Notes under the pieces: generated by a model
What the model was told of the DNA's origin: nothing
The model's input: the letters and a program-made list of their open reading frames with translations, nothing else
Databases searched by the model: none
Assembly (NCBI GenBank): GCA_003252075.1
Contig: QKDO01000065.1
Coordinates: 1-37,093 of the forward strand
Source: Nitrospirota bacterium
GTDB taxonomy: Bacteria > Nitrospirota > Thermodesulfovibrionia > Thermodesulfovibrionales > UBA6898
Length of the DNA: 37,093 bases
Direction: 5' to 3'
Program-made: the position numbers and the translations under genes
In this document: in pieces, positions 1,494-24,119 of the stretch
Layout: every line of letters starts with the position of its first letter
Position numbering within the stretch: the stretch's first letter is position 1

Positions 1494-3665
1494 ATGGATA
1501 TAGAACAAGACAAGAAAAAGGAAGAGAAAACAAGGGAAAAGCTGCCCATCGATGCGAAGCTTCTCACCGATGCAGTCATTGAGCTCAACATATCGAGACG
1601 GAGCGTTGGCCTCTATCCCCGAGAGCATCCCTCAACGAAGGAATCACTGGAGAAGGCCTTTCACTTCCTCCAGAAGTTGTTCGAACTCAGGAGTAGCATC
1701 ACCATTGGAATTGCAAAAGACGCACTGGTGGTCGACGAATACATCCTGGAAAGGAAAAATCCTGTCTTCAGGGAATTTGCCCTGAGCATGCATGCAAAGG
1801 GAATAGCTGCCATCACCTTTTACTCAGGTGCTACCATGGACGAGTTGCTCGGCTTCCATCAGCTTATCACTGCAAAAGATGTTCCTGTGGGCAGGGCCTT
1901 TATTGAACTTGCCGAGAAAAAGGGCCTCATACACATAAAGCTCTCCCCTCTGGATATCTCCAAGTTCGGCTTTATTGAAGGGAGCTTCAGGGAGAGGGCT
2001 TCTGATGCAAAGATATGGGAGGATTACATCTATGGCTTACTGGAGGGAAAGCTCGCGGATTCAGACGCAGAGGGGGTAATTCTCGGAATTCCTCCCGAGG
2101 CCATTGCTGACTTTATGAATAGGGAGATGGATGAGGATGCCTCCGAGGTGAGCTATGACAGGGTGATCACGACATACCTAAAACGGAGGGACGACTCCGG
2201 TATCAGAAGTGAGGCATTCTCCAAATTCATCTCAATGGTGCAGAGTCTCGATGTAGAGCTCAAACAGCAGTTCCTCAAGAGGACGTTCAAATCCGCTCCT
2301 GTGGATGTGCACGAAGCTGAACAGTTGATCAACGATCTCACGCAGGAAGAGATCGAGAGGGTTGCAAAGCTCTTCAGCGAACATACTTCAATGATCCCAG
2401 AAAGCCTGAGAAATATCGTTGATAAGCTCACCGCGGCAAAAAGGGAGAGGGGGTTTTTCGACATGCTGAAGGGGGAACAGGCCCTTGTGGATGACGTGGA
2501 GCTTGATGAAAACATCGTACGGCTCTTCAGTGACGATCAGTTCAAGAGCTTTGTTGCCGAGGGCTACCAGGCCGTACTTGAGCGGATGCTGCGAGGGATT
2601 ACCGTGCAGGACACCCCTATGCTTGAAGAGGCAGAAAGAGAATGTACAGAGAAGATAGTGGACAGTGTGGCCTCAGAGCTTATGCTGGAACTCGTCGATC
2701 TCGACACTACGAGCAGGGACGATTTCCTCACGCTCCTTCCGAGACTTTTTGATATGGCAAACGAATTCCTGGAGACCGGAAGGTTCGTGGAAATATCCCA
2801 TGTCTACAACACCCTTTATTCTCAGGCCCTTGATGGCAAATTCGGTGCTGATGCATCAGGGCTGGTAGAGTCCTTCTTCTCTTCAGAGGAGACCGTGGCA
2901 AAAATGATTGACTCTTTCAGGATCTGGGGAAGGCTGAATAGAGAAGGGGTCATAAGACTCGCGGAAGCACTGCAACGGCATCTCACCGAACCGCTCCTCG
3001 ATGCCCTTGCAGACGAATCCGATACCTTCACCCGAAGTTTTCTGCTCTCTCTGCTTGCCGGGCTCAAGGGCACCGTTCTCCCCCATGCTGCAAAGAGAAT
3101 ACATGATAAGCGCTGGTATGTGGTACGCAACGCAGTCTATCTCCTCAGGGAATGTGGCGGAGTGAATTACGTGCACATAATAAGGCCTTTGGTAAAACAT
3201 GCTGACAGGAGGGTGAGCATGGAGGCATTGAAAACCCTTCTCCATTTTCGGGCACCCGGCGCTTTTTCCTTTCTTAGGGTATACCTTGAATCGCGTGATC
3301 CGGAAATGAGGGATCAGGCGGTCAAGCTTGCCGGAACTGCAAGGATCAAGGAGGCTGTGCCTTACCTCCTTAAACTCCTTGAAAAGAGGGATTTCGTGGG
3401 AATTGAATTGGAGCAGAAGGCATTAATCATAAGAGCATTGGGGGAAATAGGAGACCCAAGGGCAGTGGTTGGCCTTGAGAGGCTTTATAGTGCGAAAAGT
3501 CTGCTCTTCAGGAACGCAGTGGAAGGACTGAGACGTGAGATAGTACGGAGCCTCCGGAACTATCCCCCTGAGTCGATTCAACCCCTCCTTGAGAGTGGCC
3601 TGAGGTCTGAAAACAATGAAATCAGGAAGATGAGCGAAGAAATGCTGAACAGGGAAACGGATTAA
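1494..3665 (+). CDS. HEAT-repeat protein with paralogous N-terminal domain
   Basis: A 723-residue cytoplasmic protein with no signal peptide or membrane segment. Residues about 20-200 form a domain that visibly matches the N-terminus of the next gene product: LYPREHP against LYSEEHP, a hydrophobic DALVVDE/DSLVFNE strand, MHAKGI/MRRKGI, then G-x-T-x-DEL. The middle is helical, and the last 220 residues show HEAT/PBS-lyase-type repeats (PLVKHADRRVSMEALKTLL, YLESRDPEMRDQAVKLAG, ALGEIGDPRAVVGLERLY). HEAT arrays usually bind proteins, so this may be a scaffold or regulator partner of the neighbouring HD-GYP enzyme. Only 1 nt separates its stop from the next ATG, which indicates an operon. No Shine-Dalgarno is visible before the ATG at 1494. 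Confidence 0.75.
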   Translation: MDIEQDKKKEEKTREKLPIDAKLLTDAVIELNISRRSVGLYPREHPSTKESLEKAFHFLQKLFELRSSITIGIAKDALVVDEYILERKNPVFREFALSMHAKGIAAITFYSGATMDELLGFHQLITAKDVPVGRAFIELAEKKGLIHIKLSPLDISKFGFIEGSFRERASDAKIWEDYIYGLLEGKLADSDAEGVILGIPPEAIADFMNREMDEDASEVSYDRVITTYLKRRDDSGIRSEAFSKFISMVQSLDVELKQQFLKRTFKSAPVDVHEAEQLINDLTQEEIERVAKLFSEHTSMIPESLRNIVDKLTAAKRERGFFDMLKGEQALVDDVELDENIVRLFSDDQFKSFVAEGYQAVLERMLRGITVQDTPMLEEAERECTEKIVDSVASELMLELVDLDTTSRDDFLTLLPRLFDMANEFLETGRFVEISHVYNTLYSQALDGKFGADASGLVESFFSSEETVAKMIDSFRIWGRLNREGVIRLAEALQRHLTEPLLDALADESDTFTRSFLLSLLAGLKGTVLPHAAKRIHDKRWYVVRNAVYLLRECGGVNYVHIIRPLVKHADRRVSMEALKTLLHFRAPGAFSFLRVYLESRDPEMRDQAVKLAGTARIKEAVPYLLKLLEKRDFVGIELEQKALIIRALGEIGDPRAVVGLERLYSAKSLLFRNAVEGLRREIVRSLRNYPPESIQPLLESGLRSENNEIRKMSEEMLNRETD

Positions 3666-3666
3666 C

Positions 3667-4758
3667 ATGTCCCAGAACAAGGCAAACGAATTTATATCGC
3701 TTTTAATGACCGCTCTTTCCAACTGTGCCTTATATTCAGAGGAGCATCCCTTAGTCAGAGAGTTTTCTGTAAAGGTTTATGATGAAATAGGAGGCCTCTT
3801 TGTAAATGACTCCTTGGCGATTACCCTCCTAGGGGACAGTCTGGTCTTCAATGAGGTCCCTCTTACCGACGCAGGCCCTCACCTGCACAGCTTTGCGAAA
3901 AAAATGAGAAGGAAGGGTATCGAAAAGATCATGATGGTGAAAGGAGTGACTGCCGACGAACTAAAGAAGTTCGTCGTGGCTATTGCTTCAACAGAAAAGG
4001 TCATTTCTAGCCCCCATATTTCGGTAGGGATGATTGAGGTGAAGTTTGGGGCTGATGGAGACGATGTAGATGCACTGGTCAGAGAGAATGTCGGCAAGGT
4101 AAAATCCCTCTTCCACGACATGAACAAGTTCAGGAGACTCGAAATGGTGAGTCTTGAGGACGCGGTGATAGCATTTATTGCGACCCTGAAAAGGGAGATA
4201 AACGTCCTTCGGGTTATAAGCCCGGTGAAATCCTACAGTGAGTATACCTACGTTCACGCCACAAATGTATCGGTCATTACCTTATTTCAGGCTGAGGCAC
4301 TTGGTATGAAGGGAGAGAACCTTCATGATGTAGGCATTGCCGCGCTTATGCACGATGTGGGGAAGATGTTCGTCCCTAAGGAAGTACTTGAGAAGCCGGG
4401 AAAACTTACCGACGAGGAATGGAATCAGATGAAACAGCATCCCGTGGCGGGCGCAAAGTACCTCTCCGCGCTTCCCGATGTTCCAAAACTCGCCATGATT
4501 GCAGCATTCGAACATCACATGAAATTTGACGGCCATGGATATCCTGGCATGAAAAGGAAAGGCAAGAAGCAGCATATCGTGAGCCAGATGGTTGCCATAG
4601 CTGACTTTTTCGACGCTCTGAGAACCGAAAGACCGTACCGTAAGGCCATGGACATCGCCATGATAATAGGGTTGATGAAAGAAGGAGTGGGAAGGGAATT
4701 TAACCCGCTTCTTGTGGAGAATTTCTTCGTTGCGTTGAAGCGGATCAGGGCCGTTTAG
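3667..4758 (+). CDS. HD-GYP domain cyclic-di-GMP phosphodiesterase-like protein
   Basis: A 363-residue soluble protein. Residues 1-130 are the same kind of domain as the N-terminus of the preceding HEAT protein. The C-terminal part is a canonical HD-GYP domain: HDVGK at H229-D230, a downstream histidine in MKQHPVAGAKYL, H283-H284, and the G291-Y292-P293 motif within DGHGYPG, followed by the conserved DFFDALRTERPYRK helix. All metal and signature residues are present, so hydrolysis of cyclic di-GMP (or a related cyclic dinucleotide) is expected from the family. The ATG lies directly after the preceding stop, with a GGAAACGG-type ribosome site inside the upstream gene. The N-terminal domain may receive the signal. 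It lacks a receiver domain. Confidence 0.9.
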   Translation: MSQNKANEFISLLMTALSNCALYSEEHPLVREFSVKVYDEIGGLFVNDSLAITLLGDSLVFNEVPLTDAGPHLHSFAKKMRRKGIEKIMMVKGVTADELKKFVVAIASTEKVISSPHISVGMIEVKFGADGDDVDALVRENVGKVKSLFHDMNKFRRLEMVSLEDAVIAFIATLKREINVLRVISPVKSYSEYTYVHATNVSVITLFQAEALGMKGENLHDVGIAALMHDVGKMFVPKEVLEKPGKLTDEEWNQMKQHPVAGAKYLSALPDVPKLAMIAAFEHHMKFDGHGYPGMKRKGKKQHIVSQMVAIADFFDALRTERPYRKAMDIAMIIGLMKEGVGREFNPLLVENFFVALKRIRAV

Positions 4759-4915: not shown

Positions 4916-5054
4916 AGCGGCATGGTTTGCCCCCTGCCAGCAGCAGACGGCGAGCAAGTAATTTTCCGCCAGCCCTGTTCTCTAAAATCTCATAAATCTC
5001 GTGACAATCACTATCCATTCTGCTATGATTTTCTCAAAAAGGGGGTACTCGCGG

Positions 5055-5426
5055 GTGGAGCGAAACAAGATCCTCATCATCGATGACGAGCCGCAGATAG
5101 TTCGGGCCTTGGAACTCTTGATGCAGCGGGAAGGCTTCGAAGTCCGCTCGGCGAGCGATGGCATCGAGGCACTGAGCTCCATTGAAGATGCTGCCCCCGA
5201 CCTGATTTTACTCGATTTGATGATGCCGCGCATGGACGGCTTCGAGCTCTGCCAGAAAATCAGATCCAATCCTGCATGGAAAAACATGATTATCGTCATC
5301 CTCACGGCAAAAGGTCGTGATATTGAGCGCGAGAAGGGCATGGCGCTGGGGGCTGATCATTACGTGACAAAGCCGTTCTCCACCAGAGAGGTTGTCCAGT
5401 TGATCAAGTCGGCTCTCGAGCACTGA
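5055..5426 (+). CDS. Stand-alone receiver (CheY/PilH-like response regulator)
   Basis: A single receiver domain of about 123 residues with no output domain. It shows the acidic pocket in KILIIDDEP, the phospho-acceptor aspartate in LILLDLMMPRMDGF, the switch threonine in VILTAKG, and the conserved lysine in YVTKPFSTREV. An upstream in-frame GTG (5001) and ATG (5025) exist, but the GTG at 5055 has an AGGGGG ribosome site and begins right at the domain, so it is preferred. It precedes a pseudokinase/exonuclease gene and an SLC5-histidine kinase. It could take phosphate from that kinase, in place of the DNA-binding regulators (CbrB, CrbR) that partner such kinases elsewhere. The pairing is inferred. 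Confidence 0.88.
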   Translation: MERNKILIIDDEPQIVRALELLMQREGFEVRSASDGIEALSSIEDAAPDLILLDLMMPRMDGFELCQKIRSNPAWKNMIIVILTAKGRDIEREKGMALGADHYVTKPFSTREVVQLIKSALEH

Positions 5427-5472: not shown

Positions 5473-7566
5473 ATGAGGAAGAGAGCGGCGCTTTTGCTGG
5501 TGCTACTCGCGGTGATCGTCCTGGCGCAATGCCTCGTCACTGCCTTTGCCGTTTCTTACGCTGACGGTACGTCAGCAGACGGCGGACAGTTTATCCGGCT
5601 TAGGCAGCCTTTCGGGATCTGGATCGCCCTGATCGCCGGACTGCAGACAGCAGTTTTCTTCGTTATCTACCTGACTATCTTCAGGCCCCTGAATCGCCTT
5701 GCGGAAGACGCGAAAGCCGTAACAAAGGTCAATCCAAGCGGCAAGATTGATATAGAATCTGCTCCCTTGCTCGAAGATATAACCGATGCATGCAATGCTC
5801 TCGGCAATGCGTTCCTTGAGGCTCGGCGCGCGACGATCGGCGCGGCATCGGCAGGCTCTCAAAAAACGGAGGAGCACGAGGTCCGTCTTGATTCGCTCCT
5901 AAAGGATCTCAAGGAAGGAATTGTGGTATGCGATGAGATGGGGAGAATTCTCCGTTTCAATGCTGCTGCCCGGCGGATAGTACACGACAGCGATGCCTTG
6001 AGAATCAACGGCTCGCTGTATGCGATCTGTGCTCGCCAGCCGATCGAGAACGCCATCGAACTCCTTCGTCAGGAGCTGACGAGAAGCGAATCGGAAGAGA
6101 AGATTGACCGCCTCAGGTTTCGCTGTTCGGCATTGGACGGGAGTATTCAACTCTCCTGCTGTCTGCACCTGCTGCCTCCCGGTAAGGACCCGTTGTGGTA
6201 TTTTGTCATGTCATTTGAGGACATGACGGAAACCCAGACCACGCTCCTGCGAAAGCAGATCAGCCTTGTCTCTCTCATCGAATCGATGCGTTCACCCCTT
6301 GCAAACCTCAGGGCGTCAGCCGAAGGACTTGCTGCATACAAAGATGTCGACCCGCAGGTACGCACTGAACTGGAGGGTATTATCCTGAGCGAAACAGAGC
6401 GGCTCTCGAACTGTTTTCGGGACACGGCAAAGGAAGCAGAATCCATGCGTATATCCCTCTGGGCGCGTGAGGACATTCTGTCGACAGACCTTCTGCAGTG
6501 CGCAGCCCGTCATCTGCAGGAAGCGCATATCACCCTGACCTTCACCGGCCACCCGCTCTGGGTCAACGTTGACGACAATGCAATGATCCTCCTGATTGAG
6601 TTTGTGGCGCGCAGAATCGCCGAACACGCAGGGGTATCAGAACTTGAGGTTGAGACCTTGCTGGGCGACAAGAGAACCTACTTTGCGTTTTTGTGGAAAG
6701 GAATCCCCGTACCGGAGCCGCAGTTGTCGGGGTGGGGTGGCTCCCAGCTCGTACCCTATCCTTCGTCGCTGAGTGTCGCCGATGTCCTCCGACAGCATGA
6801 CAGCGAGATGTGGAGCAAACGGCATCAAAGGGACGGTTACGCAACGCTCGTGCTTCCGGTGCCGTTTTCGCAGCAGAAATCATCTGCGCCCGTCCCCTAT
6901 CCTTCCCGTCCCGTATACACGTCGCCGGAGACTTTTCTGGAGCCACCGCCCCTCGGTGCGGCAGCGACGCAGCCGCTTTCTGCTGCTACCTTCGTCGCCT
7001 TTGACACAGAGACGACGGGGCTCCTACCTGCAGAAGGAGACCGGATCGTAGCGATCGCCGGTGTGGTAATGACGGCGAACCGCATCTTCATAGGAGATGT
7101 CTTTCACAGCCTCGTCAACCCCGGGCGCCTGATCCCGGGAAGCGCGACTCGGGTTCACGGCATTACCAATGAAATGGTCAGCGGCCAGCCTTCGACTGAC
7201 CAGGTGCTCAGGGCGTTTCAGGCTTTTGCCGGTGATGCCGTACTCGTGGGCTACGACACCGCCTTCGACATGAGTTTCATACGCTCCCGGGAGGCGGAGA
7301 GCGCCGTTCGTCTCCGAAATCCTGTTCTCGACATTTTGCTTCTGTCGATGGTTGTTCATTCACACACACCCGAGCATTCGCTCGACGCGATCGCCCGGAG
7401 GCTCGGCATCGACCTTGACAGGCGACATACCGCTTTAGGAGATGCCTTCATCACTGCACAGATCTTCTCACGGCTCCTGCCTCACATGGAAGAGCGGGGC
7501 ATCGTTACCCTCGGGCAGGCGTATGAAGCATCCCGAACTGCGCTGAAAGCGAACCGTGGCATCTGA
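5473..7566 (+). CDS. Membrane PAS/pseudo-histidine kinase fused to DEDDh exonuclease
   Basis: A 697-residue protein. Two membrane segments (about 5-28 and 48-70) bracket a short outside loop. A HAMP-like stretch, a helix and a PAS domain (about 137-250) follow. Next comes a kinase dimerisation-like helix, IESMRSPLANLRAS, which matches the H-box SHELRTPL except that the histidine is Glu270. The ATPase-like region after it has no recognisable N or G boxes. Residues 505-680 are a DnaQ/epsilon-type 3'-5' exonuclease with a full set of catalytic residues: D511 and E513 (FDTETTGL), D599 (FDMSF), H652 and D657 (HTALGDA). The nuclease therefore looks active while the kinase looks dead. A ribosome site (AGGGGGAG) supports the ATG at 5473. 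Separate DnaQ-like exonucleases occur near acetate symporter genes in other bacteria; here the module is fused to a sensor. Confidence 0.85.
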   Translation: MRKRAALLLVLLAVIVLAQCLVTAFAVSYADGTSADGGQFIRLRQPFGIWIALIAGLQTAVFFVIYLTIFRPLNRLAEDAKAVTKVNPSGKIDIESAPLLEDITDACNALGNAFLEARRATIGAASAGSQKTEEHEVRLDSLLKDLKEGIVVCDEMGRILRFNAAARRIVHDSDALRINGSLYAICARQPIENAIELLRQELTRSESEEKIDRLRFRCSALDGSIQLSCCLHLLPPGKDPLWYFVMSFEDMTETQTTLLRKQISLVSLIESMRSPLANLRASAEGLAAYKDVDPQVRTELEGIILSETERLSNCFRDTAKEAESMRISLWAREDILSTDLLQCAARHLQEAHITLTFTGHPLWVNVDDNAMILLIEFVARRIAEHAGVSELEVETLLGDKRTYFAFLWKGIPVPEPQLSGWGGSQLVPYPSSLSVADVLRQHDSEMWSKRHQRDGYATLVLPVPFSQQKSSAPVPYPSRPVYTSPETFLEPPPLGAAATQPLSAATFVAFDTETTGLLPAEGDRIVAIAGVVMTANRIFIGDVFHSLVNPGRLIPGSATRVHGITNEMVSGQPSTDQVLRAFQAFAGDAVLVGYDTAFDMSFIRSREAESAVRLRNPVLDILLLSMVVHSHTPEHSLDAIARRLGIDLDRRHTALGDAFITAQIFSRLLPHMEERGIVTLGQAYEASRTALKANRGI

Positions 7567-7587: not shown

Positions 7588-7782
7588 ATGCCGGAATTCA
7601 GAAAAAAAATAGAACGGTTGACAGCGCTGCTGATCGGCGGTATTCTCCTGCTGAATTTCCCCCTGCTCGCGATCTTTCACCGGGATGCTCTGTGGTTCGG
7701 TCTTCCGGCGCTCTACATGTACTTTGTCACTGCATGGGCTTTGTTCATCGCCCTGGTTGCGGTCATTTTAGAACGCAGTTGA
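7588..7782 (+). CDS. Small two-helix membrane protein linked to SLC5 symporter
   Basis: A 64-residue protein with a basic N-terminus and two hydrophobic helices (about 11-31 and 38-60). Its ribosome site (AAGGATAGGG) lies about 7 nt upstream. It has the size and shape of the small subunits or companions encoded beside sodium/solute symporters (DUF485, DUF3311 and DUF4212-like proteins) and of the small frame upstream of cbrA in pseudomonads. I cannot assign it to one family by eye. It starts 21 nt after the exonuclease fusion, so it is in the same operon. It may assist the symporter-kinase encoded downstream. Confidence 0.75.
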   Translation: MPEFRKKIERLTALLIGGILLLNFPLLAIFHRDALWFGLPALYMYFVTAWALFIALVAVILERS

Positions 7783-8028: not shown

Positions 8029-10758
8029 ATGCTCTCTGAATGGGTGATTCTTGTTACGTCGTTCGGGTACCTTGGCATCCTTTTCGGCATTGCGTACCTG
8101 GGAGACAAGCGTGCTGACGCCGGCAATTCCATCATCAGCAATCCTTACATCTATGCCCTTTCGATCGCCGTGTACTGCACGACGTGGACGTTTTATGGCA
8201 GCGTAGGGCGCGCCGCCGTTTCCGGTGTCGGCTTTCTCCCGATCTATCTCGGGCCGACCCTGATCGCGGCGGTCTGGTGGTTTCTGCTCCGTAAGATCAT
8301 CCGCATCAGCAAGACGTTTCGGATCACCAGCATTGCTGACTTTCTCGCATCCCGCTTTGGCAAAAGCGCATTTATCGGCGGACTGGTAACCGTTATCGCC
8401 ATTGCCGGCATCATCCCCTACATATCGCTGCAGCTGAAGGCAGTATCCAGCACGTTCAACGTTCTCCACCTGTATCCCGCCCTGGAACGGGTTCCAAAAT
8501 CCGTCGAGATTACTATCTGGAGCGACACGGCACTCTACGTGGCCATCATCATGGCACTTTTTTCCATCCTCTTCGGTACTCGTCACATTGATGCAACAGA
8601 GCGTCACGAAGGGATGGTCGCTGCCATAGCCTTCGAGTCCCTGGTGAAACTTTTGGCATTCCTCGCCGTCGGTTTTTATGTTGTGTTCGTCCTGTTTGAG
8701 AAGCCGGGCGACATCTTCTCTCTCGCGGCCGACTCGGCGCCCATGTCCATGCTGACGCACATGAAGACCTCTCTCGAGAGTTATTCATCCTGGTTCGTCC
8801 TGACCCTGATCTCCGTGTTTGCCGTCATGTTTCTGCCGAGGCAATTTCAGGTGCTCGTTGTGGAAAACGTCAATGAGGAGCACGTCAAAAAAGCCTCATG
8901 GCTTTTCCCTCTCTACCTGTTCGCCATAAACCTCTTCGTGGTTCCCATCGCCCTCGCAGGGAAAATCACCTTTTTTGGGAGCAGCGTCGATGCGGATATC
9001 TTCGTGCTCACCCTGCCGCTGACGTACGGGGAGAAGTTCCTCGCCCTGTTCGTATACATCGGCGGGCTGTCGGCCGCTACCGGCATGGTGATCGTGGAAA
9101 CGATTGCCCTCTCCACGATGGTATCGAACGATCTCGTCGTTCCCGTTCTTCTGCGCATCAAGGCACTGCAGCACGAGAATCTGAGCAGCCTCCTGCTCAA
9201 CACGCGCCGGCTGAGCATTCTACTGGTTCTCCTCCTGGGCTATCTGTACTTTCGCTTCATCGGCGAGGCCTATGCACTCGTCTCCATAGGCCTCATTTCC
9301 TTTGCAGCAGTTGCGCAGTTCGCCCCGCCTTTTCTCCTCGGCCTATTCTGGAAAGGGGCCAGCCGCCGGGGGGCTGCATGGGGTCTCTCCATCGGCTTCG
9401 CAATATGGATGTATACACTTATCTTCCCGTCGCTTGCGATAGCCGGCTGGATACCTATATCGTTCATCGACGAGGGCCTTTTCGGCATCCCGGCCCTCCG
9501 TCCCTATCACCTTTTCAATATCGAGGTTTTCGATCCCATCACGCATTCGGTCGTCTGGAGCCTGCTTGCCAATACCGGGATTCTCGTGATCATGTCGTTG
9601 ACCGGCCAGCAAAGTGTACAGGAAAAGATCCAGGCAAAACTTTTCGTGGATGTCTTCAAGCAGAGCCCCATGCTGCGAGGGTCTCCCGTTTGGGGAGGGA
9701 CGGCCCGTGTCAGCGACCTCACCGGCCTCCTCGTCCGACTTCTCGGCCAGGAGAATTGTAACCGTGCGCTCGAGCGTTATGAACGGCGGCACGGCATCAG
9801 TCTGAGCAGCATCAAGGAGGCCGATGCAGGTTTCGTGGAATTCGTCGAGAGGGAACTGTCAGGCGCTATCGGCGCGGCATCTGCACGGGTAATGATCTCG
9901 ACGGTTGTGGAAGGCGAGGATGTCAGCATTGACACGCTCATGCGCGTTCTTGACGAAACCTCGCAGGTGATCGAATACAGCCACCGGCTGGAGGAGAAGT
10001 CACGGGAGCTGGAAACAGCAACGCAGGAACTGAAGCGGACGAATGAACGCCTCAAGGAGCTGGACCGTCTGAAAGACGAGTTCATTTCCACGGTGAGCCA
10101 TGAATTGCGGACCCCCCTCACGTCGATCCGTGCCTTCTCGGAGATCCTCTGTGACGATATCGATATGGACCGGGAAAAGCGCCGGGAGCTGTTGAACATC
10201 CTGGTCACGGAAACGGAACGCCTCACGCGTCTCGTCAACGAGATACTCGACTTTACCAAGCTGGAGTCGGGCACGTACAGCTGGGCCTTCGAAGAAGTGG
10301 ACCTCGTGAAGGTTATCCGCGAGTCCCTGCGCTCCTCCGGTCAGCTCGCGCAGTCGACTTCAGCACAGGTTTCCGAACAGCTGCCGAGGAAAGCGGTCAT
10401 GATCGTCGCCGACCGGGACCGCATCATGCAGGTGATCATCAACCTTGTCACCAATGCGATAAAATACTCGGGTGAAAATCCGAAAGTAGAGATCCGCCTT
10501 CATGACGAAGGACCACATGTGCGTATCGAAGTCGCCGACAACGGTCCCGGCATCCCGCATGAGGAGCAGGAGCGGATTTTCGAGAAATTCCATCAGATCA
10601 CGGACCGGCGCACAGGGAAACCGCACGGTACGGGACTCGGCCTCTCCATATGCAAAAGAATCGTGGAATATCATCGAGGCAGAATCTTCGTGCAGAGTTC
10701 GCCCGGCCATGGCGCAACATTCATTGTCATTCTTCCCAAGAAACAGGTTGCTCCATAA
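8029..10758 (+). CDS. SLC5 symporter-STAC-histidine kinase (CbrA/CrbS type)
   Basis: A 909-residue fusion. Residues 1 to about 520 form a multi-helix sodium/solute symporter domain, including the YCTTWTFYGSVG signature near the start. A STAC-type linker follows (LTGLLVRLLGQENCNRALERY and GAIGAASARVMISTV), then a coiled coil running into LKELDRLKDEF. The kinase has an intact H-box, SHELRTPLTSIRAF with H691, an N-box at about N805 (NLVTNAIKYSG), DNGPGIP, and GTGLGLSICKRIVEYH. It should autophosphorylate. In known relatives the transporter half senses or imports a nutrient: histidine for CbrA, and acetate metabolism control for CrbS. No DNA-binding regulator sits beside it here, only the stand-alone receiver at 5055. 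The substrate cannot be read from sequence; acetate or propionate is a reasonable guess from context. Confidence 0.92.
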   Translation: MLSEWVILVTSFGYLGILFGIAYLGDKRADAGNSIISNPYIYALSIAVYCTTWTFYGSVGRAAVSGVGFLPIYLGPTLIAAVWWFLLRKIIRISKTFRITSIADFLASRFGKSAFIGGLVTVIAIAGIIPYISLQLKAVSSTFNVLHLYPALERVPKSVEITIWSDTALYVAIIMALFSILFGTRHIDATERHEGMVAAIAFESLVKLLAFLAVGFYVVFVLFEKPGDIFSLAADSAPMSMLTHMKTSLESYSSWFVLTLISVFAVMFLPRQFQVLVVENVNEEHVKKASWLFPLYLFAINLFVVPIALAGKITFFGSSVDADIFVLTLPLTYGEKFLALFVYIGGLSAATGMVIVETIALSTMVSNDLVVPVLLRIKALQHENLSSLLLNTRRLSILLVLLLGYLYFRFIGEAYALVSIGLISFAAVAQFAPPFLLGLFWKGASRRGAAWGLSIGFAIWMYTLIFPSLAIAGWIPISFIDEGLFGIPALRPYHLFNIEVFDPITHSVVWSLLANTGILVIMSLTGQQSVQEKIQAKLFVDVFKQSPMLRGSPVWGGTARVSDLTGLLVRLLGQENCNRALERYERRHGISLSSIKEADAGFVEFVERELSGAIGAASARVMISTVVEGEDVSIDTLMRVLDETSQVIEYSHRLEEKSRELETATQELKRTNERLKELDRLKDEFISTVSHELRTPLTSIRAFSEILCDDIDMDREKRRELLNILVTETERLTRLVNEILDFTKLESGTYSWAFEEVDLVKVIRESLRSSGQLAQSTSAQVSEQLPRKAVMIVADRDRIMQVIINLVTNAIKYSGENPKVEIRLHDEGPHVRIEVADNGPGIPHEEQERIFEKFHQITDRRTGKPHGTGLGLSICKRIVEYHRGRIFVQSSPGHGATFIVILPKKQVAP

Positions 10759-10791: not shown

Positions 10792-12690
10792 TCACCCTTC
10801 CCGGAAGGACATCTTCAGTTCATACATGCCTGCTTCGGCCCGGCGTTCGATGATGAAACCCATCTGTTCAAAAAGCTGCAGCATGGGCTTATTGTCCATA
10901 AGCACCTCGGCGACAAAACCGTGCAGGCCGCTTCGTTTCGCCAAAAGCGTCAGGTACCGGATCAGTTCAGCACCGATCCCTTCTCCCTGGTGATCGTCGC
11001 GCACTACAAAGGCCACCTCCGCCGTATGTGTCTCCTCATCGATAAAATATTGTCCCATGCCGGCGATCAATTCGTTGCCGTCTTCCTCCATGATCGCCAG
11101 GATCACCATTTCCCGGGTATAGTCGATGACCACGTATTTCTGAAGCTGTTCATGCTGCATGGCCGGACGTGTTGTTATGAACCGGTGGTACATGCTGTCG
11201 GAAGAAAGCGCGTAAAAAAAATGCTTCAGCAAAGGTTCGTCACTCAGCCTGACCGGGCGCAGAAATATCTTCACGCCCGCCCGTGTCGTCCTGTTCGTCT
11301 CCAGTTCCTCGGGATACTCGCCCCGTTTCCCCGGTATGAACGCCTGGTCTTTATAGATGAGATTGAGCTTCTTCGCCTCTTCGATGAGCCAGTCCCTGAA
11401 CTTGGGATGGGCAATGGCAATGAGGTCCATGGCGCGCTCCCTGATGTTCTTGCCGTGCAGATATGCAATGCCATATTCCGAGACCACATAGTGCAGATCA
11501 CCCCGGGTGAGCGTGACTCCGGCCCCTTCCTTCAGGAACGGCACGATCCGCGATACGGTCTCGTGCTCTGCAGTTGACTGAATGGCAAGGATGGTCTTTC
11601 CCCCCTGCGAAAGCATGGCGCCCCGCATGAAATCCGCCTGCCCCCCGATCCCGCTGAAAAAATACTTGCCGAGCGACTCCGCCGTTGCCTGGCCGCTGAG
11701 ATCGATCTCCAGGGCGCTGTTGATGGCCGTCGCATTCCGGTTCCTCGCTATGGTAAGGGGATTGTTGGTATAGCTCACCGGCCTGAATTCAATGCTCGGG
11801 TTGTCATGGATGAACTCATAGGTCTCCCGTTTTCCCATGCAGAATGCCGCAACGGTCTTGTCCCGGTTCAGGTCTTTGCGCGCATTGTTGATAACGCCCA
11901 TCTTCATCAGTTCCACAATGCCGTCGGAGAGCAGTTCCGTATGTACCCCGAGATCTTTCTTGCCGCGGAGATGGGCAAGGATCGCATTGGGTATGCTTCC
12001 GTATCCGACCTGGATCGTATCGCCGTCCTGCACGATGCGGGCTACGTACCTGCCGATCTTCTCGGCGATGTCATCGGATATGCTGGCTTCGTACTCCAGG
12101 AGCGGCTCATCATGGGGCACGACAAAATCAACGCTGCTGACATGGATAAAGGTATCACCGTGCACCCTCGGCATGCGGGTATTGGCCTGTGCGATCACGA
12201 TCGAGGCGCTTTCAACGGCGGCCTTGACAATGTCCACACTGATGCCGAGGCTCACATAGCCATGCACATCGGGAACGGTCGTCTGTATCAGGGCAACGTC
12301 AAGTGGGACGCGTTTTTTATAGAAAAGCTCGGGAACGGCCGAAAGAAATATCGGTGTGTAATCCGCCAGGCCTTCGTTTACCGCCTCCCGTGCCGTAGTG
12401 CCGATAAAGAAGGAATTGAACCGGAAGTTTTCCCTGAACTGTTCCTCGGCATAGGAATTCACCCCGAGGTTCCATACCTGGAGCACCTCTGCATCAACGA
12501 ATGCCTTCGGATGAGCCTGGTTATATGCCGTAAGTTCCCTGACAAGGAACTGGGGTTCGCCGCATCCGGTCCCGATAAAGATCCGGTCTCCCGGGTGAAT
12601 GTGGCTGAAGATACGCTCCAGCGAAGCAAATTTCTCCGGATAGATATTTTTCAATTCCTTTAGCACAGAGCTGTCGTGATCAAAGGCCAA
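10792..12690 (-). CDS. Acyl-CoA hydrolase/CoA-transferase fused to GNAT acetyltransferase
   Basis: A 632-residue cytoplasmic enzyme. Residues 1 to about 440 match the acetyl-CoA hydrolase/4-hydroxybutyrate CoA-transferase family (FIGTGCGEPQFLVREL near the N-terminus, VGYGSIPNAILAHL, and the FSGIGGQADFMRGA motif). The last about 170 residues are a GNAT acyltransferase domain with the acetyl-CoA loop in DHQGEGIGAELIRYL and the NKPMLQLFEQMGF helix. The start is TTG at 12690; two in-frame TGA codons lie immediately upstream, and an AAGGAG lies about 13 nt before it. The first half would exchange CoA between acyl-CoA and a carboxylate such as acetate, propionate or succinate. The GNAT half might acylate proteins, as Pat does with acyl-CoA synthetases. 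It ends 33 bp from the convergent kinase gene. Confidence 0.85.
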   Translation of the reverse strand: MAFDHDSSVLKELKNIYPEKFASLERIFSHIHPGDRIFIGTGCGEPQFLVRELTAYNQAHPKAFVDAEVLQVWNLGVNSYAEEQFRENFRFNSFFIGTTAREAVNEGLADYTPIFLSAVPELFYKKRVPLDVALIQTTVPDVHGYVSLGISVDIVKAAVESASIVIAQANTRMPRVHGDTFIHVSSVDFVVPHDEPLLEYEASISDDIAEKIGRYVARIVQDGDTIQVGYGSIPNAILAHLRGKKDLGVHTELLSDGIVELMKMGVINNARKDLNRDKTVAAFCMGKRETYEFIHDNPSIEFRPVSYTNNPLTIARNRNATAINSALEIDLSGQATAESLGKYFFSGIGGQADFMRGAMLSQGGKTILAIQSTAEHETVSRIVPFLKEGAGVTLTRGDLHYVVSEYGIAYLHGKNIRERAMDLIAIAHPKFRDWLIEEAKKLNLIYKDQAFIPGKRGEYPEELETNRTTRAGVKIFLRPVRLSDEPLLKHFFYALSSDSMYHRFITTRPAMQHEQLQKYVVIDYTREMVILAIMEEDGNELIAGMGQYFIDEETHTAEVAFVVRDDHQGEGIGAELIRYLTLLAKRSGLHGFVAEVLMDNKPMLQLFEQMGFIIERRAEAGMYELKMSFREG

Positions 12691-15768: not shown

Positions 15769-17778
15769 TCAGGTAGTGAACGTGATGAGCACCTCGTCGG
15801 TTTCTACCGCTTTGCCGATCGTTGCAGCCACATTTTCCACGACCCCGTCGCAGGGAGAGGAAACACCACATTCCATTTTCATGGATTCTATGACCACGAG
15901 GTCCTGGCCGCGGTAGACACGATCGCCTTTATTGACCAGAATACTGACCACCATGCCGGGAAGGGGTGAAAGAAGCACATTTACGCTGGCGCCTTTCTTC
16001 TCCTTTGGCATGTATTGGGCCAGTTCCCACTCTCGTGGAGTGTATATCTCAAGAATGCGGGAGATGCCGCAATGGGCGCACCATATAAAATTCTGCCGGT
16101 ACTGAAGCCTGAAGTATTGATCCACGCCGTCTATTGACAGTTTCAGCCTTCGCCGGTAGAATTCAAAAACCGGGACAACGACAGCATGTTCTGTGCCGTT
16201 TACCCTGACACGCCAGTCCGGGGATGAGAGTTGTCCCTGCAGCTCCACGTCAAAGATATTCTTATTGCCTTTGACAACGTAACGGTATAGCTGGGCCGAC
16301 TTGTGAGACAGTCCGACTTTTGCGGCCATCGGTTTTAACGATTCACGGACCAGGTTTTTCCGGTTATGATACACGGTGGTCGAGGCAAGAACCATGGCTT
16401 CAAGCTGCCCCATCGGCGGGTCGATTTTGGCCTCGCCATCCTCAAAGCATTCATCGATGAACCCGGTCGAAAGCTCACCCTTGATGAAAGCAGGGTGGTT
16501 GAGTATGGAGTTTGCAAAATCCAGATTCGTAGTCACGCCCTCGACGTGATATCGATTCAGGGCATTGATCAGGGTAGTCCGGGCTTTTTCCCGCGTCTCA
16601 CCCCAGCTGATTACCTTGGAGAGAAGTGAGTCGTAATAGACGCTTATGAAACTGCCGGCCTCAACACCGCTGTCAAGTCTGATATTTCTGCCCCTGAGAT
16701 TTGAGTACCGGGTAATCAGTCCGGTAGACGGCAGAAAATTACGGGCAGAATCCTCCGCACAGATCCTGGCTTCTATGGACCAGCCCTTGATCGAGACATC
16801 CTCCTGGGAGATCGGCAATGGCTCGCCTGCTGCTACCCTAAGCTGCAGTTCGACGAGATCAAGGGATGTGACCATCTCGGTTACCGGATGCTCCACCTGA
16901 AGCCTCGTATTCATCTCCATGAAGAAGAAGTTCTTCCGGTCATCCATGATGAATTCCACGGTTCCTGCATTGGAATATCCTGCCTCCCGGGCAAGGGCGC
17001 AGGCCATTTCGCCCATACGGGATCTGAGAGTTGCATCGACGGCAAGGGAGGGCGACTCTTCGATCACCTTCTGGTAGCGCCGCTGGATTGAGCATTCGCG
17101 TTCTCCGAGAGAGATGACATTTCCGTGCTGGTCAGCGATGATCTGGATCTCGATATGGCGGGGGCTGACGATAAATCGTTCAAGAAAGATCCTGTCGTCA
17201 CCAAATGCCTTGCGGGTCTCGTCCTGCGCCGACTGGAGGGCGGATTCAAGGTCAGAAGGGGTGGCAACCATGCGCATACCCCTGCCGCCGCCTCCGGCAG
17301 CAGGTTTGAGCAGAATAGGATACCCGATCTCGGCAGCAAGCGATCTGATCTCTTCAATGTCGACAATAGGCAGGTTGTGACCGAGCACCACCGGCACCCC
17401 TGCTTTCATCGCGATATTCTTGGCGGAAATCTTATCTCCCAGTTCAGCGATCACCTGCGATGAGGGCCCGATAAATACCAACCCTACCTTGACCACGGCC
17501 GCCGCAAACGCTGCATTCTCCGAAAGAAACCCATAACCCGGATGAACAGCCTGACAGCCCTTAGCCAGCGCAGCATTGATGATCTTTTCATGCACAAGAT
17601 ATGAGGAAGGAGAAGGCGACGGCCCGATATGGACAGCCTCGTCGGCCTCCCGGACATGGAGCGAACGTGCATCAATATCCGAATACACCGCTACGGTCTT
17701 TACATTCAACTTTCTGCAGGTCCGGATTATCCGGATCGCAATCTCACCCCGGTTGGCTATAAGGATTTTTTCAAACAT
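15769..17778 (-). CDS. pccA: Acyl-CoA carboxylase alpha subunit (biotin carboxylase + BCCP)
   Basis: A 669-residue biotin-dependent carboxylase subunit. The N-terminal biotin carboxylase starts ILIANRGEIAIRIIRTC, has the ATP-grasp glycine loop KPAAGGGGRGMRM, and carries EMNTRLQVEHPVTE. A linker domain and a C-terminal biotin carrier domain follow, with the biotinyl lysine K634 in ESMKME. It activates bicarbonate and carboxybiotin-transfers to the PccB partner to make (S)-methylmalonyl-CoA from propionyl-CoA. AAGGGG sits 6 nt before the ATG. It is last in the minus-strand run and follows pccB by 55 nt. Acetyl-CoA is a possible alternative substrate, but the neighbours argue for propionyl-CoA. 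Confidence 0.93.
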   Translation of the reverse strand: MFEKILIANRGEIAIRIIRTCRKLNVKTVAVYSDIDARSLHVREADEAVHIGPSPSPSSYLVHEKIINAALAKGCQAVHPGYGFLSENAAFAAAVVKVGLVFIGPSSQVIAELGDKISAKNIAMKAGVPVVLGHNLPIVDIEEIRSLAAEIGYPILLKPAAGGGGRGMRMVATPSDLESALQSAQDETRKAFGDDRIFLERFIVSPRHIEIQIIADQHGNVISLGERECSIQRRYQKVIEESPSLAVDATLRSRMGEMACALAREAGYSNAGTVEFIMDDRKNFFFMEMNTRLQVEHPVTEMVTSLDLVELQLRVAAGEPLPISQEDVSIKGWSIEARICAEDSARNFLPSTGLITRYSNLRGRNIRLDSGVEAGSFISVYYDSLLSKVISWGETREKARTTLINALNRYHVEGVTTNLDFANSILNHPAFIKGELSTGFIDECFEDGEAKIDPPMGQLEAMVLASTTVYHNRKNLVRESLKPMAAKVGLSHKSAQLYRYVVKGNKNIFDVELQGQLSSPDWRVRVNGTEHAVVVPVFEFYRRRLKLSIDGVDQYFRLQYRQNFIWCAHCGISRILEIYTPREWELAQYMPKEKKGASVNVLLSPLPGMVVSILVNKGDRVYRGQDLVVIESMKMECGVSSPCDGVVENVAATIGKAVETDEVLITFTT

Positions 17779-17833
17779 GGTGACCCCTTAAATGTGATAT
17801 CACTCCTATCTTCAGAAGTATCGCAACGTTCGC

Positions 17834-19393
17834 TCACAAGGGAATATTCCCGTGTTTCCTCTGCGGCCGGACTGTCCGTTTGTTTTCCAGAAACTGCAGG
17901 CTTCGGATCAGCCGGTGACGCGTATCACGCGGGTTAATGACGTCGTCAATGAATCCTCTTTTTGCGGCCATGAAGGGATTGGCGTATGTTATCCGGTATT
18001 CTTCCGTTTTCCGGGCAAGCATCTCCTCAGGATTGTCTGCCTCTTCAATCTCCTTGCGGTAAATGATCTGTGCTGCACCTTTGGGGCCGAGCACGGCGAT
18101 TTCCGCAGCGGGCCAGGCAAAATTCATATCACAGCCGATGTGCTTCGAATTCATGACATCGTAAGCGCCGCCGTAAGCCTTTCGGATGATGACCGTTATC
18201 CGCGGCACCGTTGCTTCTGAAAAGGCATAGAGTAGTTTTGCCCCGTGACGGATGATGCCGCCGTGCTCCTGCTCCGGCCCGGGCATGAAACCCGGGACAT
18301 CCTCAAGGCAGACGAGCGGGATGTTGAAGGCATCGCAGAAACGAACGAACCGGGCGGCTTTTTCTGAGGACTGGACGTCAAGGACCCCAGCAAGCACCGC
18401 AGGCTGATTGGCAATGAGACCGATGGTCTGTCCACCGAGACGGCCGAAGCCCACAATGATATTCCTGGCAAAATGGGGATGGATCTCAAGGAATTCCGCG
18501 CCGTCCAGAATACTGGTGATGAGAATCTTCATGTCATAGGTCTGGTTCGGATTGGCCGGAACCAGGTAATCCAGGGCCGGGTCCGTGCGTTCAGCCGGAT
18601 CCCGCAGATCAAGAATCGGCGCCTGCTGACGATTGTTTGAAGGCAGATAATTGATCAGCCTCCTCACCTCACGCAGGCAGAGAATATCATTGGGAAAAGC
18701 GAAATGGGCCACGCCGCTTTTCTTGCTGTGCACCATGGCCCCGCCCAGTTCTTCTGCGGTGATGTCCTGGTGTGTGACCGTCTTGACCACGTTGGGTCCC
18801 GTGACAAACATATATGAGGTATTTTCCACCATGAAGGTAAAATCTGTTATGGCCGGGCTGTAGACTGCACCGCCGGCGCAGGGGCCCATGACGCAGGATA
18901 TCTGCGGCACCACCCCGCTTGCCTGGACATTGCGATGGAAAATCTCTCCATAGGCTGCCAGTGATTCAACCCCTTCCTGGATACGCGCGCCGCCGGAATC
19001 GTTCAGTCCGATGATGGGCGCACCGACCCGCACAGCATGGTCCATGACCTTGCAGATCTTCTGCGCATGGGCCTCCCCGAGCGCCCCGCCCACGATGGTG
19101 AAATCCTGACTGAAGATGAAGACCTCGCGGCCGTCAATGGTGCCGTGCCCGGTGATCACCCCGTCACCGGGGAACTCGCCAATGCCGGAACTCTGGCCGG
19201 CCCTGCCGGTCATCAGCAGGTCGAATTCTTCAAACGAACCCTCATCAAGGAGCAGGTCGATACGCTCCCGCGCGGTGAGTTTCCCTTTGCGGTGCTGGGC
19301 CTCGATTCTCTTGGCCCCACCGCCGAGAAAGGCCTCCTCTTTCATGGATTCAAGTTTTGTCAGATTATCCTGTTCTGGCCGCTGCACAATCAC
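17834..19393 (-). CDS. pccB: Propionyl-CoA carboxylase beta subunit (carboxyltransferase)
   Basis: A 519-residue carboxyltransferase of the PccB/MmdA family: [20 protein letters not shown] at the N-terminus, the [19 protein letters not shown] helix, the first oxyanion site in [15 protein letters not shown], the second in [20 protein letters not shown], and the [11 protein letters not shown] motif. It moves CO2 from biotin to propionyl-CoA. The start is GTG at 19393 or, with better spacing to GAGGGGG, GTG at 19387. It lies 18 nt after the epimerase gene. An MmdA-type decarboxylase would also need membrane subunits, which are absent, so carboxylation is the simpler reading. Confidence 0.93.
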
Positions 19394-19411
19394 ACCCCCT
19401 CGAATAAGATC

Positions 19412-19807
19412 CTATTTACAAAACTCGGTGAGCACGCCGAATGTGCCCTTCGGATGCAGAAATGCCACCTGCTTGCCGCCGGCGCCCGGTATCGGAGCTT
19501 CATTGATCAACCTGCATCCATGTTCCCGTGCGGCTCCCAGCTGGCCGTCGATATCATCAGTCCGATATGCAATATGATGGAAGCCCTCACCTTTTTTTTC
19601 CAGAAAGGCAGCAATGGGACTGTCATCAGAGGTGGGTTCCAGCAGCTCGATATGGACTTCGCCCACCGTAAAAAAGGCGGTCCGCACCTTTTGCGAGGCC
19701 ACAACCTCTTCCTTTTCACAGACAAGCCCCAACACCTCTTCATAAAATGTACGGGCCTCCGCAATGGACCTGACCGCAATCCCCAGATGATCAATCTTCT
19801 CTATCAT
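19412..19807 (-). CDS. mce: Methylmalonyl-CoA epimerase
   Basis: A 131-residue VOC-fold enzyme beginning IEKIDHLGIAVRSIAEARTF, with EVHIELLEP, KGEGFHHIAYRTDDI, and LHPKGTFGVLTEF at the end. H7, H78 and E128 fit the metal-binding positions of the family. It interconverts (S)- and (R)-methylmalonyl-CoA, joining the carboxylase product to the mutase. The length is standard. It lies between the mutase and carboxylase genes in one run. Confidence 0.93.
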   Translation of the reverse strand: MIEKIDHLGIAVRSIAEARTFYEEVLGLVCEKEEVVASQKVRTAFFTVGEVHIELLEPTSDDSPIAAFLEKKGEGFHHIAYRTDDIDGQLGAAREHGCRLINEAPIPGAGGKQVAFLHPKGTFGVLTEFCK

Positions 19808-19868
19808 GGTATCAATCGCTCCAACGTGTCTTTCTCAATTATACCTGTGACCTCAATCACGAAGCGAA

Positions 19869-21530
19869 TCACCCTCTGTACTCACCGAATACCTCCCGCA
19901 GGACCTGGCAGATCTCACCGAGCGTGGCATACGTCTTGACCGCCGCAAGTATCTCGGGCATCAGGTTGGCTGAAGTTCGGGCGCACCTGGACAGATTCGC
20001 AAGCGCTTCCGCAACTTTCTTGTTATCACGCTTCTCTCGCAGTGCTTTGAGGCCCCGGACCTGGGCATTTTCCACTTCAGGATCAACGCGCAACAGAGGA
20101 GGTTTTGTCTGCTCAGCAATCTGGAACTCGTTGACACCAACGATGATACGCTCGCCTTTTTCGATCTCCTGCTGGTATTCATAGGCGCTGTTTTCGATCT
20201 GGCGCTGGATAAACCCATCTTCGATTGCAGCCACCACACCACCTGCTGTTTCGATCTTTTCGATGAGTTCGGATGCCTGTACCTCGATACGGTCGGTGAG
20301 TTCCTCAATAAAATACGACCCTGCAAGGGGGTCGACGGAATTTGTCACCCCTGATTCATGGGCTATCACCTGTTGCGTGCGAAGGGCTGTGCGCACGGAA
20401 TCCTCAGTGGGCAGAGACAGTGCCTCATCCCGGGAATTGGTATGCAGGGACTGGGTGCCGCCAAGGACCGCGGACAGGGCCTGGAGAGCGACCCTGACAA
20501 TATTATTGTCGATCTGCTGGGCAGCAAGGGTGTAGCCGGCAGTCTGGGTATGGAAGCGCAGCATCCGGCTTTCGGGTTTCACGGCATTGAAACGCTCTCT
20601 CATGATCCGAGCCCACAGCCTCCTTGCGGCCCGGAACTTGGAAACCTCTTCCAGAAGATCAGATGAGGCATTGAAGAAGAAGGATAGTCTGGGTGCAAAA
20701 TAATCGAGTTCAAGCCCGGCATCGAGTGCAGCCTGCACATAGGTTATACCGTTGGCAAGGGTGAAGGCCACTTCCTGGACCGCGGTGGACCCGGCCTCCC
20801 GGATGTGATAGCCGGATATCGAAATGGTATTGAATTCCGGAGTCTGTTCCGTGCACCACTTGAAGATATCGGTGATCAACCGAAGACTCGGCCACGGCGG
20901 GAAGATATATGTTCCGCGGGCCACGTATTCCTTGAGGATATCGTTCTGGATCGTTCCCTTGAGCTTGCCGACCGCTACCCCCTGCTTCTCGCCCACAGCT
21001 GCATACATGGCAAGGAGTATGGCGGCAGGTGCGTTGATGGTCATGGAGGTGGACACCTTATCCAGCGGAATCCCGTCAAAAAGGATTTCCATGTCAGCCA
21101 GTGAATCAATGGCCACGCCGACCTTCCCCACTTCGCCTGCAGCCATAGGATGATCAGAGTCGTAGCCGATCTGGGTCGGCAGATCAAAGGCAATGGAAAG
21201 ACCGGTTGTCCCCTGTTCCAGCAGATACCGGTAACGCCGGTTCGATTCCGACGCGGTAGAGAAACCGGCATACTGGCGCATGGTCCATAGCCGTCCGCGG
21301 TACATTGTGGGCTGCACCCCCCGGGTATAAGGATACCGTCCGGGAAAGCCGATCTTTTCGAGATACTGGTCACCGATCTGGTCCGGCACGGCAAGTCGCG
21401 GAATTTCCTCGCCGCCATGATTTGTGAATTTCTTCTTCCTCTCGGGAAAGCGTTTGAGGCTTGCAGCCAGTTCTTTTTCTTCCCAGTCTTTATATTCAGG
21501 TTGTTTTCCCATAACCATTATCCCGTTCAC
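19869..21530 (-). CDS. mutA: Methylmalonyl-CoA mutase, catalytic large subunit
   Basis: A 553-residue TIM-barrel mutase subunit without the B12-binding domain. Recognisable signatures are [55 protein letters not shown], and [17 protein letters not shown]. It converts (R)-methylmalonyl-CoA to succinyl-CoA by radical rearrangement, together with the B12-binding subunit encoded at 22539-22961. The split-gene form is known from archaea and some bacteria. The GTG start at 21530 has GAAGGTGA about 8 nt upstream, and that site lies in a perfect hairpin (21541-21558). ATG codons at 21518 and 21512 are alternatives. Confidence 0.93.
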
Positions 21531-21540
21531 ATCAATGTCA

Positions 21541-21558
21541 CCTTCGGTTCACCGAAGG
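21541..21558 (-). promoter_or_regulatory. Hairpin overlapping mutA ribosome site
   Basis: CCTTCGGT (21541-21548) and ACCGAAGG (21551-21558) form a perfect 8-bp stem with a 2-nt loop as written; the inner pairs would probably open. On the minus-strand mRNA the 3' arm supplies the GAAGG of the mutA ribosome site, so the stem could mask it. Confidence 0.45.
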
Positions 21559-21575
21559 CTGATTACCCCTGTTTA

Positions 21576-22511
21576 TCATTCAGAGATCCTCAAGCATTCC
21601 TGTTCGAGCAGTTTTGCAGCATGCCGGCGGGGGGCTCCTTTCCGGTCATGATCCCATGCATTGATCCTCTCGATTATCGAAGGCTTGATCATCTCAAGGG
21701 CCCAGTCCAGTACTTCAAGGTCATACGCCCTATCCCTGCGTGTCCTGCGCTCCCCGCTCTCCCGGTGTGAAGCATCGACTGCTTCGATTGCTGCAATCAG
21801 ATCGTCTATGCCTTTCCCTTCCGACGCCACCGTCATGCAGACTTTTGCCTTATCTTTGTCTTTACTGCCACTCTCCCGGGCAATGGACTCCATATCCATG
21901 GCAAGTGTATCCGCTCCTGCACAGTCCGCCTTATTCACGATCAGGATGTCAGCCACCTCCAGAAGTCCCGCCTTCATGGCCTGAATGTCATCGCCCAGGC
22001 CCGGAGCAAGCACCAGGGCTGTGATGTCCGCAATCCTTATGATATCCATTTCAGATTGCCCCACTCCCACAGTCTCGATGATAATGATGGAGCATCCTCC
22101 GGCCGCAAGTATCCTCATTGCGGCTCCCGCGGCGGCACACAATCCTCCCAGCCTTCCCCTCGTAGCCATCGATCGGACAACCACATCCTGATCCAGTGCA
22201 TGCCCCATCATCCGGACCCTGTCACCGAGAATGGCACCGCCTGAAATAGGAGAAGACGGGTCTACGGCGATAACCCCCACCCTTCTCCCCTGGGAACGGT
22301 ACTTTGTTATGATGCGGTCGGTCAATGTGGATTTTCCGGCACCCGGAGGTCCGGTTATCCCCAAAATTGTTGTCTGATCAATAAGCGAATGGTCGAGGGA
22401 TGAGAGTATTTCATCTGCCAGAGGATCGTTTTCTTCCACAAGGGAAATGGCCCGGCCGATTCCCCTTGGATCACGGTCTCTCAATCCCTTAAGAATGTCT
22501 TCGCTCTTCAT
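21576..22511 (-). CDS. meaB: MeaB/ArgK-family mutase chaperone GTPase
   Basis: A 311-residue G3E-type GTPase with a Walker A GPPGAGKST (K60), GVIAVDPSSPISGGAILGDR, the ETVGVGQSE switch and the NKAD base-recognition motif. MeaB proteins gate cobalamin loading and protect methylmalonyl-CoA mutase from inactivation. It lies between the two mutase subunit genes, as expected. GGAGA lies about 10 nt before the ATG. The length is typical. Confidence 0.94.
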   Translation of the reverse strand: MKSEDILKGLRDRDPRGIGRAISLVEENDPLADEILSSLDHSLIDQTTILGITGPPGAGKSTLTDRIITKYRSQGRRVGVIAVDPSSPISGGAILGDRVRMMGHALDQDVVVRSMATRGRLGGLCAAAGAAMRILAAGGCSIIIIETVGVGQSEMDIIRIADITALVLAPGLGDDIQAMKAGLLEVADILIVNKADCAGADTLAMDMESIARESGSKDKDKAKVCMTVASEGKGIDDLIAAIEAVDASHRESGERRTRRDRAYDLEVLDWALEMIKPSIIERINAWDHDRKGAPRRHAAKLLEQECLRISE

Positions 22512-22538
22512 CTGCGGATTTTCTCCGGGCTCGTTTGA

Positions 22539-23175: not shown

Positions 23176-23216
23176 TTCTCATTAGCTGTATTGGTTAATA
23201 ATGATTTTCTCATTGA

Positions 23217-24086: not shown

Positions 24087-24119
24087 GATGTCTCAGTCCA
24101 TTTCCCTCATCACAGTCAT

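Follow-up and report, generated by a model that had tools for sequence, protein, structure and literature searches.

A 697-codon gene in a 37,093-nucleotide stretch of DNA from a Nitrospirota bacterium (the window) encodes a genuine single-polypeptide fusion of a membrane anchor, a PAS domain, a dead histidine kinase and a DEDDh exonuclease domain. Comparison with relatives establishes, at the level of sequence, this architecture, the loss of the kinase residues, the invariance of the nuclease residues and the conservation of the regulator and kinase genes that accompany the fusion. The same comparison ties the integrity of the kinase-derived DHp (the two-helix hairpin) to the presence of an adjacent response regulator gene, and the product of that gene is the probable partner of the fusion.

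Architecture of the fusion protein

Table 1. Features of the fusion gene and its neighbours (coordinates are those of the window).
Feature	Coordinates	Strand	Description and basis
Sigma-70-like promoter match	5001..5029	+	GTGACA-17-TATGAT, extended -10, 5' of regulator gene; predicted by consensus scan
Single-domain response regulator (CheY-like)	5055..5426	+	Pfam Response_reg 6e-31; directly upstream of fusion, 46-nt gap
Fusion gene	5473..7566	+	697 aa: 2 TM helices, helical linker, PAS, DHp-like, CA-like, DEDDh exonuclease; ORF, homologues, AF2
Membrane anchor	5476..5685	+	Hydrophobic helices at about residues 2-31 and 47-71, short intervening loop; direct sequence reading
PAS domain	5863..6234	+	Residues 131-254; Pfam PAS_9, family HMM, AF2 mixed alpha/beta fold
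DHp-like two-helix hairpin	6235..6462	+	Residues ~255-330; alignment to neighbour kinase, AF2, profile match to histidine kinases
CA-like (HATPase fold) domain	6463..6870	+	Without N-box Asn or G1 Asp; H442 and W447 retained; VIA-align
Flexible linker with conserved RPxx(Y)DFDLF-type motif	6871..6969	+	AF2 pLDDT <50 at 468-487; conservation
DEDDh 3'-5' exonuclease domain	6970..7539	+	Residues 500-689; Pfam, invariant residues, fold match
64-aa hydrophobic small protein	7588..7782	+	Between fusion and kinase; sequence, neighbourhood
SLC5 symporter-histidine kinase	8029..10758	+	CrbS/MxtR-like architecture; Pfam SSF/HisKA/HATPase_c

The reading frame of the fusion was checked at its coordinates and is uninterrupted, with a ribosome-binding-like AGGGGGA 5' of the ATG. 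In an AlphaFold2 (AF2) model (mean pLDDT 86; alignment of 48 sequences), two membrane helices are followed by a long helix and then by a PAS fold, a DHp hairpin, a CA-like domain, a disordered linker and the exonuclease. The two membrane helices proposed in the initial annotation are borne out both by the hydrophobic stretches and by this model, which places them at residues 2-31 and 40-85. The PAS-like region that it had also described is a clear PAS domain in the model, the Pfam PAS_9 match (residues 148-253, E 9e-4) being weak and under the gathering score. On the kinase part Pfam gave a very weak HisKA match and almost nothing else. The linker motif (residues ~477-488, positions 6901-6936) is recognisable also in members without a kinase part, and is possibly an autoinhibitory or docking element.

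In one sister genome the copy (G007/L003) is interrupted at an unread base. This break looks like an assembly gap; it is also what would speak for two genes joined wrongly by misassembly or a frameshift, a reading that we rejected and to which we give practically no probability, because well over 100 genomes contain continuous fused ORFs, some of them on finished contigs or annotated plasmids. The initial annotation had named halves that are always separate in relatives as one observation that would refute the fusion, and had proposed a search for the same domain order across genomes; the halves proved to be joined in all these genomes, and fused relatives turned up in several phyla.

The DHp helices span residues 252-288 and 294-329 in the AF2 model and the CA-like domain residues 333-466. 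Over 50 residues the hairpin aligns, at 44% identity, with that of the adjoining genuine kinase, and on this basis E270 (6280-6282) was placed on the phospho-histidine and the conserved R273 (6289-6291) at His+3. The DHp-CA part modelled by itself (pLDDT 93.7) matched histidine kinase cores with VIA-align Z scores of 13-15 (13.4 for DivL), and the profile of the region matches solved histidine kinases (E 1.9e-9). Among the 102 members with a full-length DHp, the phospho-His column contains D in 43, E in 41, other residues in 18 and His in none, and the R273 column is R in 92. The N-box Asn (column 380) is present in at most one of these 102 members and the G1-box Asp is replaced by Trp (W408) in 100, while H442 and W447, which from our reading of the HATPase motif we take to be ordinary residues of this fold, are mostly kept. 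Of the features of a functional histidine kinase, the fusion has the DHp and CA folds and lacks the acceptor His, the N-box Asn and the G1 Asp. Judged from sequence and model, the kinase part is a catalytically dead histidine kinase whose fold is kept, in agreement with the earlier description of an ATPase-like region lacking N and G boxes. The replacement of the H-box His by Glu270, claimed at the same time, holds as far as the loss of His is concerned; it is not specifically a change to Glu, and a phosphomimetic Glu was rejected as a specific feature since 84/102 members have Asp or Glu in the slot and the others a different residue. Nor did an acidic residue in the slot track the presence of the regulator among full-length members.

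Pfam RNase_T aligned with residues 508-665 of the fusion (E 1.5e-32, 113.8 bits against a cut-off of 24), and the exonuclease part superimposed on the PolC exonuclease with a Z score of 24.2 and an rmsd of 2.2 over 196 residues. The four acidic residues and the His five positions before the last Asp define a DEDDh enzyme; all of them (D511, E513, D599, H652 and D657), already noticed as in place, are invariant across 55 aligned relatives. DEDDh enzymes usually act at the 3' ends of nucleic acids. The DnaQ epsilon subunit, the PolC exonuclease, DinG, TREX and RNase T have the same fold and residues as the fusion but are without its sensory region. A role as replicative DNA polymerase III epsilon subunit was rejected because equivalog cut-offs were missed (dnaQ equivalog TIGR01406, 99 bits, under the cut-off of 222.7), and the label 'DNA polymerase III subunit epsilon' carried by family members is probably no sign of a replicative role. 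A phage or anti-phage origin was rejected as well: no full-length phage match was found, and the PADLOC hits on the fusion cover the generic DEDDh domain only.

Because the exonuclease residues are invariant and because short forms of the family lose the kinase part and keep the nuclease, the nuclease is taken to be the core function. Both observations weigh against a degenerate kinase that serves as a sink or stabiliser of regulator phosphate with the exonuclease as a separate passenger; such a role has a precedent in DivL, which lengthens the half-life of DivK~P without kinase or phosphatase activity (PMC4211667), and we hold it to be very improbable for the fusion.

The response regulator gene and the integrity of the DHp-like hairpin

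The regulator encoded upstream of the fusion is a lone receiver domain without a DNA-binding part, and the regulators adjacent to fusions keep the phospho-Asp and the Lys in 89/89 cases each. This candidate partner had been missed in the initial annotation. We scored 166 members for the PAS-to-CA spacer, as a measure of DHp length, and for an adjacent regulator gene, so that the comparison concerns adjacency and not binding, in a sample that is uneven and heavy in Rhodobacterales. With a cut at 68 residues, set after the distribution was seen, the regulator was directly upstream in 88/102 members whose spacer reached at least this length (compare with 1/64 where the spacer was shorter or the CA domain absent). 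When an HMM score cut was used instead, the corresponding figures were 85/100 and 4/66. On the best tree, built without the DHp/CA columns, the DHp state changes 12 times, and 10-11 of the 12 independent pairs agree with the regulator, with 0-1 opposite. When only the well-supported branches were retained, 4-5 of 6 agreed and none was opposite (p 0.06-0.25, not significant alone). The short Rhodobacterales forms keep the DUF4212-actP-DUF294-small gene arrangement, and exactly the regulator and the DHp/CA part are missing. This comparison of sequences shows that DHp integrity is coupled to the presence of the regulator gene. The DHp goes with a neighbouring intact regulator gene and, without that gene, is shortened or missing, which points to docking of the regulator as the likely input of the fusion.

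W447 is kept in 85/88 full-length members with a regulator and in 4/14 without, and R273 in 84/88 and 8/14, respectively; W447 and the regulator shift together in about 5/9 independent changes. The conservation of these two residues is suggestive of regulator binding at the DHp face. DHp-regulator covariation was also calculated at the canonical interface, where about 5% of slid blocks were as high, with few effective sequences (Neff 29). The 14 of the 102 full-length members that have no adjacent regulator include one whole Desulfuromonadales group; their regulator may be encoded elsewhere.

These exceptions could also be read in favour of a pseudokinase that is a dimerising scaffold relaying a PAS-sensed ligand or redox signal, the regulator acting elsewhere in the pathway and being co-inherited, and such a relay would fit the finding that practically every member has PAS, even the short forms that are without DHp or CA. 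It leaves unexplained, however, the repeated joint loss of regulator and DHp from operons that are otherwise preserved, as well as the link between W447 and the regulator, and we consider it unlikely. Regulator docking is the reading that we retain: a role in ligand sensing alone is improbable for the pseudokinase, while its PAS domain may still sense something. The initial view of a membrane-tethered nuclease set by a sensory pseudokinase stands for the tether, the dead kinase, the nuclease residues and their union in one polypeptide; it has to be modified for the input, which is probably regulator docking and not simply ligand sensing.

The gene order in the window is regulator, fusion, 64-aa hydrophobic protein and SLC5 kinase, and the usual order elsewhere is [small membrane protein - SLC5 kinase] - response regulator - fusion. 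The 64-aa protein has no Pfam match, and its relatives precede SLC5-kinases at other loci. The catalytic boxes of the SLC5 kinase are whole (SHELRTP, NLVTNA, DNGPGI), as are the H, N and G1 boxes of nearly all SLC5 kinases near fusions. An SLC5-kinase adjoins 20/35 regulator-bearing loci and 0/18 of the others; in the long Rhodobacterales forms the regulator is present and an adjacent SLC5 kinase is absent. An apparent kinase-regulator ORF at locus L059 was dropped as a natural fusion: two ORFs overlap there in different frames.

Proposed pathway and related systems

We propose that the SLC5-domain histidine kinase would sense or transport a small organic acid and phosphorylate the single-domain response regulator encoded just upstream of the fusion. 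The phosphorylated regulator would then dock on the hairpin of the pseudokinase in the manner of DivK~P on DivL, and the resulting conformational change, together with any PAS-sensed input, would travel via the CA-like domain and the linker and switch the exonuclease at the membrane. The trimmed substrate would most likely be RNA 3' ends or short oligonucleotides tied to a switch between acetate, pyruvate and propionate. We judge this sequence of events, from SLC5 kinase to altered exonuclease activity, to be moderately probable; phosphotransfer to this regulator, docking, the sign of control, nuclease activity and the nature of the substrate are all points that we infer. Whether the fusions amount to a widespread undescribed class of two-component system, with a membrane exonuclease as output, a regulator docking on a fused dead kinase with an acidic His slot and an SLC5 nutrient sensor directly controlling RNA (or nucleotide) turnover, is in our judgement evenly balanced.

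Docking on the fused DHp is proposed by analogy with DivL of Caulobacter, a dead kinase that binds DivK~P via the canonical DHp face and is inactive both as a kinase and as a phosphatase (PMC4211667). Both proteins have a DHp-CA kinase fold with the His slot replaced, PAS domains and an Arg at His+3, which in DivL (R553) is required for DivK~P binding (PMC4211667). DivL is a reported binder of a single-domain regulator, whereas for the fusion such a regulator is encoded next door and would be bound. The slot is Tyr in DivL and mostly Asp or Glu in the fusion family; furthermore, DivL is without a nuclease and signals to another kinase, CckA, while the fusion carries its own enzyme.

The second related system is CrbS/CrbR (MxtR/ErdR), whose SLC5-STAC kinases resemble the SLC5-domain histidine kinase found here, with its intact catalytic boxes. 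Relatives of the fusion keep CrbS/R-like company (actP, acs, a small membrane protein and DUF294), and an exonuclease also belongs to the P. putida MxtR/ErdR regulon; the link to acetate symporter and CrbS-type kinase genes that the initial annotation had mentioned was widely found. CrbR/ErdR is a DNA-binding transcription factor, in contrast to the regulator studied here, which has no output domain, the nuclease itself bearing the pseudokinase. The exonuclease of that regulon, PP_0353, is a stand-alone enzyme whose gene forms an operon with the DUF294/CBS gene PP_0354; it is an MxtR/ErdR target needed for growth on pyruvate, and its authors speculate on a function in mRNA decay (PMC9927547). 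PP_0353-type RNase_T/DEDDh exonucleases share with the fusion the type of nuclease domain and the genomic company, but they look soluble (~230-270 aa in the relatives examined), are without membrane, PAS or kinase parts, and fall on a separate branch of the exonuclease tree.

DUF294, DUF4212, actP and acs are frequent near the fusion in relatives. DUF294 is present in most fused operons and 23/24 stand-alone exonucleases in relatives adjoin it. Another contig of this genome (L246:2958-5626, minus strand) carries a stand-alone 269-aa DEDDh exonuclease ORF that overlaps the end of a cNMP/CBS/DUF294 nucleotidyltransferase ORF, and in P. putida PP_0354 and PP_0353 make up one operon (PMC9927547). 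DUF294 and the stand-alone exonuclease look like a conserved writer/eraser-like pair. The 23/24 count and the pair in this genome speak for an exonuclease that erases a nucleotide added by DUF294 to protein or RNA, with the pseudokinase and regulator only timing it. Linkage does not prove a joint substrate, though, DUF294 is not adjacent to the fusion in this window, and from what is known of the family DEDDh enzymes normally work on nucleic-acid 3' ends; we rate an eraser as improbable, to about the same degree as the scaffold discussed above, and prefer the trimming of nucleic-acid ends under control of the regulator.

The usual targets of response regulators are DNA, flagella and second-messenger enzymes. 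If our proposal is true, a regulator-controlled exonuclease would tie nutrient sensing straight to nucleic-acid turnover, and the principle of DivL, a dead kinase as receiver for a regulator, would extend from one cell-cycle protein to a multi-phylum metabolic family. It would also give a role to proteins labelled 'DNA polymerase III subunit epsilon' or 'exonuclease domain-containing protein', and open an approach to the DUF294 operons and to the reason why PP_0353, a stand-alone cousin, has a pyruvate phenotype.

Distribution and genomic surroundings

The fused family was found in more than 150 genomes of Nitrospirota, Acidobacteriota, Pseudomonadota, Desulfuromonadales and Bacteroidota. Sister genomes contain one fused copy that is 95% identical and others that are ~42% identical, and about 60 further fused homologues occur in other phyla, the named hosts being Acidobacteriota, alpha-, beta- and gammaproteobacteria, Desulfuromonadales, Bacteroidota and Magnetococcales. 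For the Ruegeria locus, the sampled family (Rhodobacterales) has a member in 112/248 genomes, many of them short forms; for the Comamonas locus, the sampled order (Burkholderiales) has one in 20/250. Outside the window's own family, only one carrier genome was present among those sampled in its phylum, and this rare and scattered occurrence suggests that the fusion arrived there by horizontal spread. A literature search covering few subscription journals found no paper describing a kinase-exonuclease fusion, in line with the initial statement that no characterised example was known.

Several other genes were observed around these loci. Convergent with the SLC5 kinase gene, positions 10792-12690 (minus strand) encode an acetyl-CoA hydrolase/transferase fused to a GNAT acetyltransferase domain. 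Further along, translations from 15769-27184 read as biotin carboxylase, carboxyltransferase, mutase, a MeaB-like protein, SucCD and an acyl-CoA synthetase; this looks like a propionate/short-chain acyl-CoA cluster and would fit the context of an organic-acid sensor. In nearly all Rhodobacterales operons a ~160-aa protein is encoded between DUF294 and the regulator/exonuclease genes (L033:5952-6437 and equivalents), with no Pfam match above its cut-off. Finally, upstream of the regulator gene, a HEAT-repeat protein (1494-3665) and an HD-GYP protein (3667-4758) are encoded in tandem and, by eye, apparently have a similar N-terminal region (~...YxxEHP...).
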